NCBI GenBank assembly: GCA_900199595.1
Contig: FZRB01000018.1
Location: 1 to 64,000, forward strand
Reading direction: 5' to 3'
DNA: 64,000 bases
From: Lachnospiraceae bacterium
GTDB lineage: Bacteria > Bacillota > Clostridia > Lachnospirales > Lachnospiraceae
Position numbers and translations under genes: made by a program. The notes beneath the pieces were generated by a model. The model saw only the letters and a list, made by a program, of their open reading frames with translations, made no database searches and was not told the origin of the DNA. Below are positions 1,856 to 58,768 of the stretch, piece by piece (positions within the stretch are counted from its first letter, which is position 1; each line of letters begins with the position of its first letter).

Positions 1856-3496
1856 TTACATCTGAGAATTGAACAGACTCTTAATCTTATATACTATATC
1901 CTCACTGTCGGCATTGATGGTTGCTGCCTCGTTAACCTCTGACAGCTTTCTCATGGCATCTGTATCAGCATCAGAAGTATAGCTTATGGTATATACAGGT
2001 ATTTTAGATTCATCTAATGCCGGTGTAATGGAACCAAGGCTGTAGCCAACATTCTGATAACCATCACTGAGAAGGAATATCATTGCCTTTGCATCCGGGT
2101 TGGATTTTTTAGCCTCTTCTATCATGTTCATTGCAACGACTACCGCATCATAACTTGCTGTAGAACCGTTAGCTGTAAGTCCGTTTATTCCTCCCTGGAA
2201 ATAAGCCTTCTGATTCATATCAAACTTTGCAATCGGAACCTCTATGGTTACATCATCACTGTAGCTTACAAGTCCTACATAGTTATTTTCATTTATATAC
2301 TGCATACCATTTGAAAGTGATGACTTAAGCTGATTGATCGGATCACCATACATACTTCCACTGCAGTCAGCTACGAATACTGCGATTATATCCTTACCAT
2401 TATCCTTATTGGATTTATACATTTCCAGAGCTTTATTTACCTCTGAGCCTGTAAACTGTGCTTCTGATTTATAATCATCATTGGCATTAAATCCATACTT
2501 TGTAGCAACTGCCTGTGAATCTGAACTCATCAAAAAGTCGTTTATTATTCCGGCAGCTTCTATCTCATCATTACTCAGATATTCCTGATTTACGATATAA
2601 AGCGGATTATCATGTCTGATACCAAATGGAATAAAGTTATAAAGCTTATTTATGTTCGGCTCGTTTATATAGGTCTGGTACTCAAGTATCATTCCATCCA
2701 GTGTTCCCTTCTGGGCACTGTCTCTCATCTGCATAGTGTTGTAAGCAACAAATGGAATATTCTGCTGGAATCTCTTGAAGGAGTCAATTCCTGCATCACT
2801 GAACATGTTTTCATCTCCCATCTTAAGTATAGACAGAAGAAGATTCATTCCTGTTGAGCTTGTCTGTGGATTGGTATAACCAATATTGATCTTGCCATCC
2901 TGAACTGCTGTTATAATATCTTTAAAGCTTTTATATTCACTATTCTTATCTATAAGAAGTCCTGCAGTATTTCCGACCAGACGATCATTGAGAACCGTAA
3001 CACTTCCACCATTTGCATTTACATACTCTCCCCACAGATAATTGGAAGGAGTAAACAGCTGTGGTGTATGCTTGTTTGAAATAATATAGTCTGCAGCAAG
3101 TCCCGAAGATACCGGACGAACACTGAGGGCGATGGTATTTCCATTCTGAGTTGTAAGCTTCTGCTTGTTAAATCTTTCAGCAACATCTATCAGCCACGCC
3201 TCATATGAATCTCCTGCTTTCTCCGGAGATGTCATGATCTCGATGGATATGTCAGCTGTAGCACTTACAGCAAGCGGATACTTACTGATTTCAGGAAGTT
3301 CATCATAAAGTGTATTATCATCCAGGGAAATAGAAGCCTTTGTAGGTGTATTCTCATACACTTTGATATGCTTAAGCATGGACTCCACAGTCCTTCCCTT
3401 TGAGGACGTTTTAACCAGTGCAAGTATTCCGAGTATAAACACTATTACAACTGCAAAAACTATTCCAACAATTGCAACTACATTACTTTTTTTCAT
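1856..3496 (-). CDS. Membrane-anchored solute-binding-fold / von Willebrand factor A fusion protein
   Basis: The 546-residue protein has an N-terminal membrane segment at about residues 7-29 and then an extracellular part. Residues about 80-345 resemble a type II periplasmic solute-binding protein (a middle section with YTNPQTSSTG-type ligand-loop wording). The C-terminal 170 residues are a vWA domain with a complete MIDAS metal site: D377, S379 and S381 (DCSGSMYG), T446 and D478 (LLSDGY). vWA domains bind proteins or matrix through a metal ion; the ligand here is unknown. Its start overlaps the preceding gene in an ATGA motif, so the two are translationally coupled, and it is the last gene of a glycan-synthesis operon. 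It could act as a surface sensor or assembly factor; that is inference. Confidence 0.8.
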   Translation of the reverse strand: MKKSNVVAIVGIVFAVVIVFILGILALVKTSSKGRTVESMLKHIKVYENTPTKASISLDDNTLYDELPEISKYPLAVSATADISIEIMTSPEKAGDSYEAWLIDVAERFNKQKLTTQNGNTIALSVRPVSSGLAADYIISNKHTPQLFTPSNYLWGEYVNANGGSVTVLNDRLVGNTAGLLIDKNSEYKSFKDIITAVQDGKINIGYTNPQTSSTGMNLLLSILKMGDENMFSDAGIDSFKRFQQNIPFVAYNTMQMRDSAQKGTLDGMILEYQTYINEPNINKLYNFIPFGIRHDNPLYIVNQEYLSNDEIEAAGIINDFLMSSDSQAVATKYGFNANDDYKSEAQFTGSEVNKALEMYKSNKDNGKDIIAVFVADCSGSMYGDPINQLKSSLSNGMQYINENNYVGLVSYSDDVTIEVPIAKFDMNQKAYFQGGINGLTANGSTASYDAVVVAMNMIEEAKKSNPDAKAMIFLLSDGYQNVGYSLGSITPALDESKIPVYTISYTSDADTDAMRKLSEVNEAATINADSEDIVYKIKSLFNSQM

Positions 3497-17627: not shown

Positions 17628-17830
17628 TCACATGTACCGTAGCTCCCCATCTAATCCTTTAGATGACAGTCCTCAGACTCTTAATCTGAAGCCCAGCCGG
17701 ATACATGTCCCTTAGAAACTTTACAGTTACTTTGCATCCGCTTCGGCGAATCATCCTTTCTCACATCTTCAACTGAATGGGCTTCATCCGATATGATACT
17801 GATAATCATCGCAACCTCTACATACATCGA
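17628..17830 (-). promoter_or_regulatory. Lysine riboswitch (L-box)
   Basis: On the minus strand the conserved core elements occur in order: AGAGGTTGCGA with ATCAGTA, then AAAGGAT with TTCGCCGAAGC, then GGCTGGGCTTC, then GGACTGTCAT, then GGGGAGCTAC. P1 is formed by ATGTATGTAG and the CTAC-GTACAT segment at the 3' end. Together with the following terminator and dapA this is a standard lysine-sensing attenuator. Confidence 0.93.
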
Positions 17831-22416: not shown

Positions 22417-23169
22417 TTATTTGAGCCTCAGGTTTTTGATTTCATTAAATATACTCTCTAAGCACGCAGATACTCTCGTGCCCATTCTATCTCTTTTTAT
22501 TCTTCTTACATATTTTTTATTCAGGCTTCTCACAGCCTTATCATTGTATTTTTTCTCAAGTTTTTTCTTCAGCTTCTTCTTATATTCCTGTCTCTTAAGA
22601 TATTTCTTATATTCTTTCATATATCTTTTTGCATATCTGAAGGTCTTTTCTTCACCCTCTTCGGCAAGCATATTCAGAAGCAGATTGATCTTTTTTCTGA
22701 CATAAGGATGCATAGCACCCTTTGATTTTCCATTCAGGAAATAATCCAGAGCCGTCCTGTCTGTATAGTCATTCTTATGATATATTTTGCTGGCTGCTAC
22801 ACGGTCACAGAACATTTCTACAATATAATTATCCGGCATTTTCATACCGACCATACTTCCATCTCTTTTTACCAGATCATAATCTAGCCAGTACTCCAGA
22901 TGATGCTTATTCCTCCCCTTATGATGAAGCCAGGAGGATGTATATCCCTTGTCCTCTCTTTCAGCATCATTGGGACTTCTTGTCCCCTGATAATACTTAG
23001 CTCCAACCAGAAATTCTGATGGAGAATACTTTGACAGATCATGTAAAAGACCCTGCTTATAAAGCCCGCATCTAAAACAGTTTCTGCCCACTTCAAACTT
23101 ATGTTCATTTATGGTCTGAAGATGTTTAAACCACTTCTTTTCTTTTATTTTATCCATAATACCCATCAT
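22417..23169 (-). CDS. DUF5662-like conserved protein
   Basis: This basic protein of about 250 residues has a conserved N-terminal half with histidine/aspartate pairs (LLHDLSKYSP, WLHHKGRNKHH) that recall a metal-binding HD-type fold, and a lysine/arginine-rich C-terminus. The family is common in Lachnospiraceae and has no known function to me. I choose the ATG at 23169, 8 nt after AAGGAAG, not the upstream in-frame start that would add a hydrophobic stretch lying over the promoter. It is first in a probable operon with dnaE. Confidence 0.75.
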   Translation of the reverse strand: MMGIMDKIKEKKWFKHLQTINEHKFEVGRNCFRCGLYKQGLLHDLSKYSPSEFLVGAKYYQGTRSPNDAEREDKGYTSSWLHHKGRNKHHLEYWLDYDLVKRDGSMVGMKMPDNYIVEMFCDRVAASKIYHKNDYTDRTALDYFLNGKSKGAMHPYVRKKINLLLNMLAEEGEEKTFRYAKRYMKEYKKYLKRQEYKKKLKKKLEKKYNDKAVRSLNKKYVRRIKRDRMGTRVSACLESIFNEIKNLRLK

Positions 23170-23209
23170 AGTTTTTACTTCCTTAATGATTAGAATTCCA
23201 CATTTATAA

Positions 23210-23238
23210 ATTATAACAATAATCAACTTTTGATACAA
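23210..23238 (-). promoter_or_regulatory. Promoter of the DUF5662-dnaE operon
   Basis: On the minus strand TTGTAT (23238-23233), 17 nt, TATAAT (23215-23210), about 40 nt before the chosen ATG. Confidence 0.7.
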
Positions 23239-23349
23239 TAATAAAAAAGTATGGCACTATCCATGTTCTGATGATAGAATGACATAAGTGTCATAAGTCG
23301 GCACGCGTTCTTGCTTGCAAGAAAAGCGTGTTGACTTCATGACACGCAA

Positions 23350-23373
23350 AACACGAGGAAAAAGCATTTTTTG
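23350..23373 (+). repeat. 24-nt direct repeat, copy 1
   Basis: Starts AACACGAGG and ends CATTTTTTG; identical to copy 2, 117 nt downstream. It is followed by a run of A that could fold back on the T run. Confidence 0.85.
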
Positions 23374-23466
23374 AAAAAAAATAGCGGTTTCCGAGTGTTT
23401 TCAGGATTGCGAGAGTTTTCGAAGAAAACGGAGCAATCCGTATGTCATTCAATTGATAAGCGTCTT

Positions 23467-23490
23467 AACACGAGGAAAAAGCATTTTTTG
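23467..23490 (+). repeat. 24-nt direct repeat, copy 2
   Basis: Exact copy of 23350-23373. It ends 17 nt before the ATG at 23508, so any pairing or protein binding here could affect the ribosome site AAGGAA. Confidence 0.85.
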
Positions 23491-23507
23491 TAAAAAAGGA
23501 AATCATT

Positions 23508-24392
23508 ATGCAGTTAAAAAATGAAGATAATTCAAATCAAAATGTAACAAATCAGAATCCTAACCCTAATTATAACTCTGCTTCTCCAAATGGAAATTTT
23601 AATCAACAGACATCTCCTTATGGAAACAACACGGGGCAAACTGCCCCATACGGAAGCTATAATCAACAGAATACTCCATACTATAATCAACAGAATACTC
23701 CATACTATAATCAACAGAATACTCCATATGGAAATAATAACCAGCAGGCAGTGATCAGTCAGAAGAGCAGCTTTCCGGTATGGCTTGTAATTCTTATAGC
23801 CGTTCTTGTTATAGGGGCAGCAGGATATTTTCTGCTTGGTACTTTTAATGATATATTCGGAAAGGCTGATTATACTCCGGGCACGGTAACTGACAAGTCC
23901 TATCAGAACAATTATTTTGAATTCAAAACAACACTTGGTTCCGGTTGGAAGGTAACTCAGAGTGTTTCTGATACTGAGCTTGTTAAGAAGACTCTTAATC
24001 AGAAGCAGGTTGTCACTGAGTTTTCTGCTCAGAATGATAAGTCAATAGAAGTCATTGGTTTTTCTGTACAGCAGACGCCTTATAACATAAAGGCCGTAGG
24101 AACAGATATAGATAATCTTATGGATAATCTGAAGTCTGAATTCGTAAAGGAAATGGAAGCCGGTGGATATAAGATATCAAATATAGAAAGAGATACCATG
24201 ACCATAGCCGGAAAAACCTGCGAAGGCTTTAAAATGACAGGAAGAGTTGATGGAGTCAATATGGATCTGAGTCTGGTTCAGTTCTATATGTTCAAGGGAA
24301 ATTATGTCGGCGCATTTTCCGCCGCTTCAACCTCCCAGGGAAAAGCAAAGCTTGTTATCACAAATAATGTCAGTGAACTCTCTTCTAACTAA
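23508..24392 (+). CDS. Asn/Gln/Tyr/Pro-rich single-pass membrane protein
   Basis: The 294-residue protein has an N-terminal low-complexity half of about 85 residues built from YNQQNTPY-type units, a membrane helix at about 91-111, and an extracellular domain of about 180 residues. The outer domain has a mixed alpha/beta pattern and one cysteine (KTCEGF); I do not recognise its family. With no signal peptide cleavage site, the repeat-rich part should lie in the cytoplasm. The repeats are encoded by three perfect 24-nt copies. It is followed after 33 nt by an SDR gene in the same direction. Confidence 0.8.
   Translation: MQLKNEDNSNQNVTNQNPNPNYNSASPNGNFNQQTSPYGNNTGQTAPYGSYNQQNTPYYNQQNTPYYNQQNTPYGNNNQQAVISQKSSFPVWLVILIAVLVIGAAGYFLLGTFNDIFGKADYTPGTVTDKSYQNNYFEFKTTLGSGWKVTQSVSDTELVKKTLNQKQVVTEFSAQNDKSIEVIGFSVQQTPYNIKAVGTDIDNLMDNLKSEFVKEMEAGGYKISNIERDTMTIAGKTCEGFKMTGRVDGVNMDLSLVQFYMFKGNYVGAFSAASTSQGKAKLVITNNVSELSSN
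23657..23728 (+). repeat. Three perfect 24-nt tandem repeats inside a gene
   Basis: Copies at 23657-23680, 23681-23704 and 23705-23728 are identical, each encoding eight residues of the YNQQNTPY pattern. Imperfect relatives flank them. Such arrays change copy number by slippage while keeping frame. Confidence 0.93.
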
Positions 24393-58611: not shown

Positions 58612-58629
58612 ACTAAACAACATATTGAT

Positions 58630-58660
58630 ATGGGTGTCAAAAGTACCTTTTGACACCCAT
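58630..58660. repeat. 14-bp perfect inverted repeat in a divergent promoter region
   Basis: ATGGGTGTCAAAAG and CTTTTGACACCCAT pair with a TAC loop; no T run follows on either strand and no gene ends here. The arms match the terminator at 1814-1848. Confidence 0.7.
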
Positions 58661-58768
58661 TTGACATTTACAACTCAACTGTTTTGGTATACTATGGTGT
58701 TAACATATAAAGTTTTAAAAACCACGTCGTATTATATATTGAATAATAGTTTTGAGAGAGACTGTATT

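Follow-up and report, generated by a model that had tools for sequence, protein, structure and literature searches.

A decayed Clostridiales-1 RNA copy at a predicted promoter: a mobile-type repeat that may act as a folded mRNA leader

Within the window, that is, the whole 64,000-nucleotide stretch of DNA that was analysed, a strongly structured sequence lies directly ahead of a gene for an Asn/Gln-rich protein (23508–24392, + strand; 294 amino acids, one apparent membrane segment by eye, no Pfam match over the cut-off). This raises the question of whether it is a regulator dedicated to that gene, an independent small RNA or a mobile repeat. A cmscan search placed positions 23280–23447 (+) in Rfam family RF01699, the Clostridiales-1 RNA, at 114.3 bits against a curated gathering cut-off of 48, the match running the full length of the model (positions 1–166). 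The window copy belongs to this family by its sequence, its structure over the full length and its score, and the earlier note on this DNA, in which no family with such a core was recognised, was wrong in that respect. A covariance model built from copies at a V-ATPase site alone (see below) also recovered 23276–23451 of the window, at 99.5 bits (E 3e-20). In the table of Weinberg et al. (2010; PMC2864571), Clostridiales-1 is listed from Clostridiales and human gut as probably an RNA, probably not cis-regulatory and not a switch, and Rfam gives it the type 'Gene; sRNA'. Searching the literature by family name and accession returned, besides that study, only titles on other subjects; no paper was found giving RF01699 a sense-orientation bias or a transposable class. 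Taken alone, the feature in the window is a decayed and otherwise ordinary representative of an RNA family already known, and what appears to be new is the natural history of RF01699, namely its mobile units, a candidate insertion sequence (IS) partner and fixed copies under structural selection. Our main reading, to which a probability of about 0.78 is given, is that this Clostridiales-1 copy arrived as a miniature inverted-repeat element (MITE) and would now act in cis as a general folded mRNA leader and not as a ligand switch.

The region 23270–23500 was predicted to fold with a minimum free energy of −84.8 kcal/mol, compared with −48.8 ± 4.4 kcal/mol in dinucleotide shuffles (z = −8.2; none of 200 shuffles as low). 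A closing stem, P1 (23277–23286 with 23441–23450, + strand; two of its pairs were examined and have probabilities of 0.996 and 0.999), encloses three hairpins on the same strand and so forms a four-way junction. These are P2 (23288–23345; 25 pairs in the minimum free energy fold), P3 (23348–23401; 21 pairs, with an opposed GA/GA internal loop, ACGAGG/CCGAGT) and P4 (23404–23439; 13 pairs, with a purine-rich internal loop). The closing stem, the long first hairpin and the 13-pair hairpin had all been picked out correctly beforehand, whereas P3 had been missed, leaving a description of two hairpins in a three-way junction. An exact 24-nt repeat had also been reported; it is present and extends to a pair of 31 nt with one mismatch (23350–23380 and 23467–23497). 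The first member of the 24-nt repeat sits inside P3, and the second belongs to a partial second copy of the element (23467–23497, +; element positions 71–101, 30 of 31 identical). The 5′ strand of P1 overlaps a left terminal repeat, TGACATAAGTGTCATAAG, at 23280–23297, which differs by one mismatch from the end pattern of the mobile units described below.

The window's own genome (G000) contains 25 RF01699 matches, all over the cut-off. Among 61 genomes of the genus, G000 included, 49 had a match at E ≤ 0.001 and 46 had one over the cut-off, the number per genome ranging from 0 to 25, while in a class-wide sample, with up to seven candidates scored per genome, at least 16 of 391 genomes matched, at least 13 of them over the cut-off, in at least 12 of 223 genera. 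Further comparisons used 107 copies, composed of the 25 from G000 and 82 hand-picked by score and genome among the matches listed, and not a random sample. A regular expression applied to the first 20 nt split them into classes A and B, B taking in two second members of tandem pairs: 50 of the 107 begin like TGACATAAGTGTCAAAAG and are called mobile-type here, and the other 57 have diverged ends. Sites shared by at least two genomes, with both flanks similar, were seen for 22 of the 57 non-mobile-type copies compared with 2 of the 50 mobile-type copies, the copies at shared sites not being independent events.

Many scattered copies had been named in the earlier note as counting against a cis-regulatory RNA if they were unrelated to gene starts; the copies are indeed many and scattered, but they are not unrelated to gene starts. 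With neighbouring genes taken as mechanically called ORFs and not as annotation, and with 7 of the 107 copies lacking an assessable downstream ORF, 86 of 100 assessable copies lie in sense to the downstream ORF (40/48 mobile-type, 46/52 others). The next ORF was on the opposite strand for 8/48 mobile-type and 6/52 other copies, and of the 96 copies for which a neighbour was called on each side, 5 lie in convergent gaps. For non-mobile-type copies with a codirectional upstream ORF, the stop of that ORF ended between −1 and +16 of the element start in 27 of 43 cases, a count made with an ORF caller that overlooked the true stop codon upstream of some V-ATPase copies. The orientation bias may come from target choice (AT-rich, TATAA-like sites and so −10 boxes), from selection, or from both. 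A partial or full second copy on the same strand within 160 nt was found downstream of 34/106 copies and upstream of 3/104, all three of the latter being second members of tandem pairs. Partial second copies are often single domains (P2, P3 or P4), for example at L038-type loci and in the V-ATPase gaps L277 and L289.

Complete units of the mobile type can be delimited, in which the RNA core continues as TATGGTGTCAAAAGGTACTTTTGACACCCACATCA to give about 203 bp with the ends TGACATAAGTGTCAAAAG and TGATGTGGGTGTCAAAAG. The terminal repeats are 18 bp long and alike at 14 of 18 positions between the two ends, the right one ending 35–36 nt beyond the RNA core in complete units of the genus; its end sequence CTTTTGACACCCACATCA was exact in 13 of 21 two-ended units. 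On either side of a unit stands a short AT-rich direct repeat of 5–6 bp. Exact duplications of at least 5 bp bordered 12 of the 21 two-ended units, as against 36 of 420 (8.6%) mismatched left-right pairs; nine units were without an exact duplication, one of these having just 2 nt of left flank. Allowing up to two mismatches, the end pattern occurs at 82 places in G000 compared with 3 for the reversed control, and these places include 39-bp end-to-end palindromes, a 73-bp form and 310–311-bp forms with an insert in P4. The copies are dispersed and partly near-identical, the best pair of the own-genome set being 99.4% identical. A MITE-like repeat, offered in the earlier note as the alternative to an RNA regulator, is largely right, with terminal repeats of 18 bp instead of the supposed 10; the RNA reading and the MITE reading are not exclusive.

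Units of two other genera of the family (G355 and G147) differ at the left end, though this still forms pairs within P1/P2. As read by eye, the same right end with shorter tails is present in most G355 copies, exact 5-bp duplications flank four of the seven (TTTTA twice, TTACT, CTTTA), and TAATA is duplicated at the single G147 copy. Clostridiales-1 cores were also observed beside the shared right end in other genera, at L328, L354 (Catonella morbi) and L321 (Frisingicoccus), and at L363 (Saccharofermentans, 5′ end cut). A 108-nt multi-hairpin insert in P4 was seen at the G000 loci L010 and L025–L029 (in L027 at about 3150–3260) and, nearly identical by eye, in the V-ATPase-gap copies L281, L282 and L283 of three other species; apart from RF01699, everything that an Rfam search around it returned scored far below the respective gathering cut-off.

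A search for DDE_Tnp_1 in G000, G056, G041 and G019 gave three hits in G000 and one in G056. The latter is a 534-aa transposase within a 1,876-bp element bounded by perfect 18-bp ends, TGATGTGGGTGTCAAAAG, which match the right end of the mobile units; no target duplication was found for this element. The transposase has Pfam domains DUF772, DDE_Tnp_1_6 and DDE_Tnp_1 above cut-off and matches NCBIfam NF033551 (E 1.8e-33). Through NF033551 and the three Pfam domains it resembles insertion sequences of the IS1182 family, but at 116.2 bits it falls under the curated cut-off of 270 for members, so the partner can be called IS1182-like only. G033 holds a transposase 79% identical to this one, lying between the same ends, of which one has a mismatch, and flanked by duplicated TTATA, and three more loci, fetched by the right-end pattern, have a related transposase (59–61% identical) between two such ends. 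Two of these three have exact 5-bp duplications, TCTTA and TATAA, and the third starts too near a contig end, giving by eye an exact 5-bp duplication in 3 of 4 assessable IS copies. On the evidence of shared ends and duplication length, an enzyme of the G056/G033 type would be the one that moves the Clostridiales-1 units in trans. At E ≤ 1e-20 the transposase was found in 3 of the 61 genus genomes searched, G000 not among them, and around its G012 relative no such end was found.

Several other candidates for the mobiliser were rejected. The own-genome scan gave no end-pattern pair around any of the three DDE_Tnp_1 hits of G000, and no transposase of the IS3/IS21/IS30 type (rve, PF00665) was over cut-off in G000, G056 or G041, where there was one weak hit in G041. 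A 2-kb stretch of G000 (C2:43881–45878) has well-placed end patterns, its left part being a 73-nt palindrome, and its ORFs are not transposase-like by eye.

It should be asked whether such units are anything more than purely selfish MITEs, with a fold that serves transposition or acts as DNA and with fixed copies that are tolerated relics. The terminal repeats, target duplications, IS partner and near-identical copies all fit that view, as do the common partial second copies and truncations. The fixed copies, which occupy matching operon positions in several species, speak against it. The gap between the V-ATPase genes ntpK and ntpE was examined at 30 loci of the genus (35/61 genomes matched), sorted by eye: 11 have the element (10 full, one P3-deleted), 2 have truncated forms, 6 have diverged relatives (4 scored, at 25–38 bits, below the cut-off) and 11 have a gap of 13–49 nt without the element. 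Presence, truncated forms included, was clustered on an ntpK tree, with 4 changes compared with 10.1 for shuffled labels (0/500 as low), a tree which does not separate gains from losses. In the 10 full copies, which come from 10 species, pairing holds in 93.5% of cells and two-sided changes were seen at 31 of the 48 base pairs, where shuffled controls gave 77.0% and 18.3 pairs (0/500 as high on either measure). Slid structures reached at most 42.8% and 10 pairs, a control that leans towards the structure since the latter was derived from the same alignment, and a further shuffle measure based on further pair types was not extreme (39/500). The two-sided changes fall in P1, P2, P3 and P4; the outer P1 pairs overlap the last ntpK codons, so constancy there is uninformative.

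These V-ATPase-site copies no longer display terminal repeats and have retained the fold through two-sided changes, whereas relics would lose pairing. The fold has thus been kept at a fixed site while the species diverged, as would not be expected of a dead repeat. The strong orientation bias is a second point against purely selfish units, together with the scarcity of copies in convergent gaps, since BOX and RUP of Streptococcus pneumoniae are reported to be enriched between convergent genes in the account of Croucher et al. (2011; PMC3049150). A purely selfish MITE is on balance an unlikely explanation, if one to be taken seriously. The earlier claim of a structured regulatory RNA holds at the level of the family as far as structured RNA is concerned, by the compensatory changes at a fixed site elsewhere; the place before orthologues of the same gene, which the note had named as possible support, was not found (see below). 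A diverged Clostridiales-1 relative was also observed in the ntpK–ntpE gap of another clade, own genome included (L294, L297, L300, L304), with a GAGGAA/TTCCGA motif, an apparently rearranged domain order and scores of 25–38 bits.

Movement of the units between species is suggested by identities far above those of dnaE. The 203-bp unit of G007 matches that of G000 at 202 of 203 bases, where aligned dnaE is 71% identical, and it matches the G019 unit, which runs into a contig end, at 196 of 196. The core shared by G041 and G056 is 99.4% identical compared with 73% for dnaE, and the copies of G004 and G056 are 98.2% identical compared with 76%. Near-identical units across divergent species point to recent horizontal movement. 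This signal could be an artefact if the contig with the G007 unit had entered that assembly as contamination from a relative of the window's organism; the G007 draft has about 150 contigs and 2% contamination, and its match is on a contig of 22,533 bases. Excess identity in the two other pairs argues against contamination, although G056 and G041 are also drafts and the comparison is not decisive, and on the whole we regard an artefact as quite unlikely. In two phage records, MT837057.1 (6532–6665) and MT835871.1 (13792–13901), stretches of the element were found with 72–75% identity and 56–71% coverage; both are unannotated 'Bacteriophage sp.' from human faeces and represent a possible vehicle. 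A search of a plasmid collection gave no element match.

The role of the RNA has next to be weighed against its filing as a trans-acting sRNA gene with its own promoter. Besides the Rfam type, this filing has behind it the listing of the family as probably not cis-regulatory in the table of Weinberg et al. (2010; PMC2864571) and the genes downstream of the own-genome copies, which look mutually unrelated by eye. Against it, the great majority of assessable copies point into the downstream ORF, the copies that begin at an upstream stop codon leave little room for a promoter of their own, and a consensus scan of the + strand of 23150–23560 found no terminator-like site. An independent sRNA is possible and less likely than a cis effect, and as an account of the family it is, in our view, very unlikely. 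The preferred reading, a leader that acts in cis, is itself a guess from position, with copies in sense to the gene and at promoters or right at stop codons; it leads because of that position and orientation, the seemingly unrelated genes beside the own-genome copies and the analogy with known transcribed repeats as described in PMC3049150.

At the window locus the element begins at a predicted promoter. An extended −10 box, TGATAGAAT, was predicted by consensus scan at 23272–23280 (+), as part of a match ATGGCA-18-TAGAAT with TG before the hexamer, a type of match that is weak alone (2 sites compared with 1.9 expected in shuffles). The last T of this box is the first base of the element. A transcript is predicted to start at about 23286–23288, and with a start near 23287 most of the P1 5′ strand would be outside the RNA and the leader would open with P2. 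If transcription begins at the predicted promoter, most of that strand would thus be untranscribed; the fold computed from 23287 has −77.9 kcal/mol. The window copy retains its left end with one mismatch, and neither a right end nor a target duplication was recognised, so that its history has to be read from its relatives, of which the nearest in the sample is another own-genome copy (88.2% identical). From its sequence it is best described as a copy of the mobile type that has decayed and that sits at a predicted −10 box.

The sequence of events proposed for this leader is as follows. A non-autonomous mobile repeat of the MITE type, moved in trans by an IS transposase with the same ends, would have inserted at the −10 region of the promoter belonging to the downstream gene, and a TATAA-like target there would, with the first T of the element, rebuild the −10 box. 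The right end would later have decayed, leaving the partial second copy adjoining the ribosome site. In the mRNA the rigid folded leader would then change, in cis, how stable the message is, how it is processed or how the downstream gene is translated. Other copies, landing in promoters or operon gaps, would join mRNAs in the same way, and some of these would then be kept for their fold.

The orthologues of the Asn/Gln-rich protein bear on how specific this arrangement is. Of 20 loci scanned, the window's own was the one with the RNA, and none of the 19 others had a Clostridiales-1 RNA; on this ground gene-specific cis-regulation of this protein was rejected at the window locus. In G019 (L040) the orthologue is preceded by a very similar promoter stretch with no Clostridiales-1 match, and TGTGGGTGGTGTC stands just after the matching −10 box. 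As TGTGGGTGGTGTC may be a relic of another unit, G019 is not a clean empty site.

The TGACA/TGTCA inverted repeat on which the earlier note had based two competing folds is present in the sequence; forcing it, however, gave −74.1 compared with −84.8 kcal/mol, a cost of 10.7 kcal/mol, and the probability of its outer pair was 3e-8. This 5-bp hairpin occurs in 42/50 mobile-type copies, as part of the terminal repeat, compared with 0/57 others. Strand exchange with the second 24-nt copy was also rejected as a switch, with 0.000 and 0.019 expected pairs compared with about 13. A ligand riboswitch or attenuator for the Asn/Gln-rich membrane protein, alternating between the closing stem and the TGACA/TGTCA hairpin, has in its favour that the alternative pairing exists in the DNA and that the RNA lies directly upstream of the gene, but it is extremely improbable given the cost of that hairpin and its absence from all non-mobile-type copies, a second 24-nt copy not predicted to displace the first, the single orthologue locus with the RNA and the unrelated look, by eye, of the genes downstream of other own-genome copies.

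Under the preferred reading of a mobile repeat turned mRNA leader, Clostridiales-1 can be compared with BOX and RUP, which according to PMC3049150 are likewise small multi-copy interspersed repeats with inverted ends resembling those of IS and with a fold when transcribed. Unlike BOX and RUP as described there, Clostridiales-1 copies are mostly upstream of genes in sense and include orthologous fixed copies with compensatory evolution. ERIC, Correia and BIME/REP are reported in the same source (PMC3049150) to be transcribed intergenic repeats that alter mRNA stability or attenuation; these are analogies by description and not by sequence. The findings also differ from the view tabulated for Clostridiales-1 (PMC2864571) in that most of the hand-picked sample of 107 copies is in sense to a downstream ORF and one class of copies has the look of a transposable unit. 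An 'sRNA' family catalogued without known role would in this way gain a natural history, in which a mobile-repeat body with a candidate transposase is joined by copies kept for their fold. The annotation of RF01699 matches would shift from sRNA genes to mobile mRNA leaders or intercistronic elements, and the uneven copy numbers would be explained by mobile history. The ntpK–ntpE gap with and without the element offers a testable case of a transposable sequence becoming an RNA part of an operon.

A bolder version of this reading is put forward tentatively, as an idea with a somewhat smaller chance of being right than wrong. Clostridiales-1 would be a portable mRNA control element, with IS ends that carry the fold between species into −10 boxes and operon gaps in sense, and with some copies selected as a general module for mRNA stability or processing that a shared host factor would recognise, possibly at the conserved GA/GA and purine-rich loops. 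If true, this would be a mobile element that installs ready-made RNA regulation.

Elsewhere in the window, the end-pattern scan found a 39-bp end-to-end palindrome of the same mobile family at 58626–58664, and a short imperfect palindrome with one end of that family lies at 1812–1850 (end pattern at 1812–1829), neither being assigned to a strand. It should also be noted that a lysine riboswitch aptamer (RF00168) was detected on the − strand at 17632–17828, with 101.2 bits.
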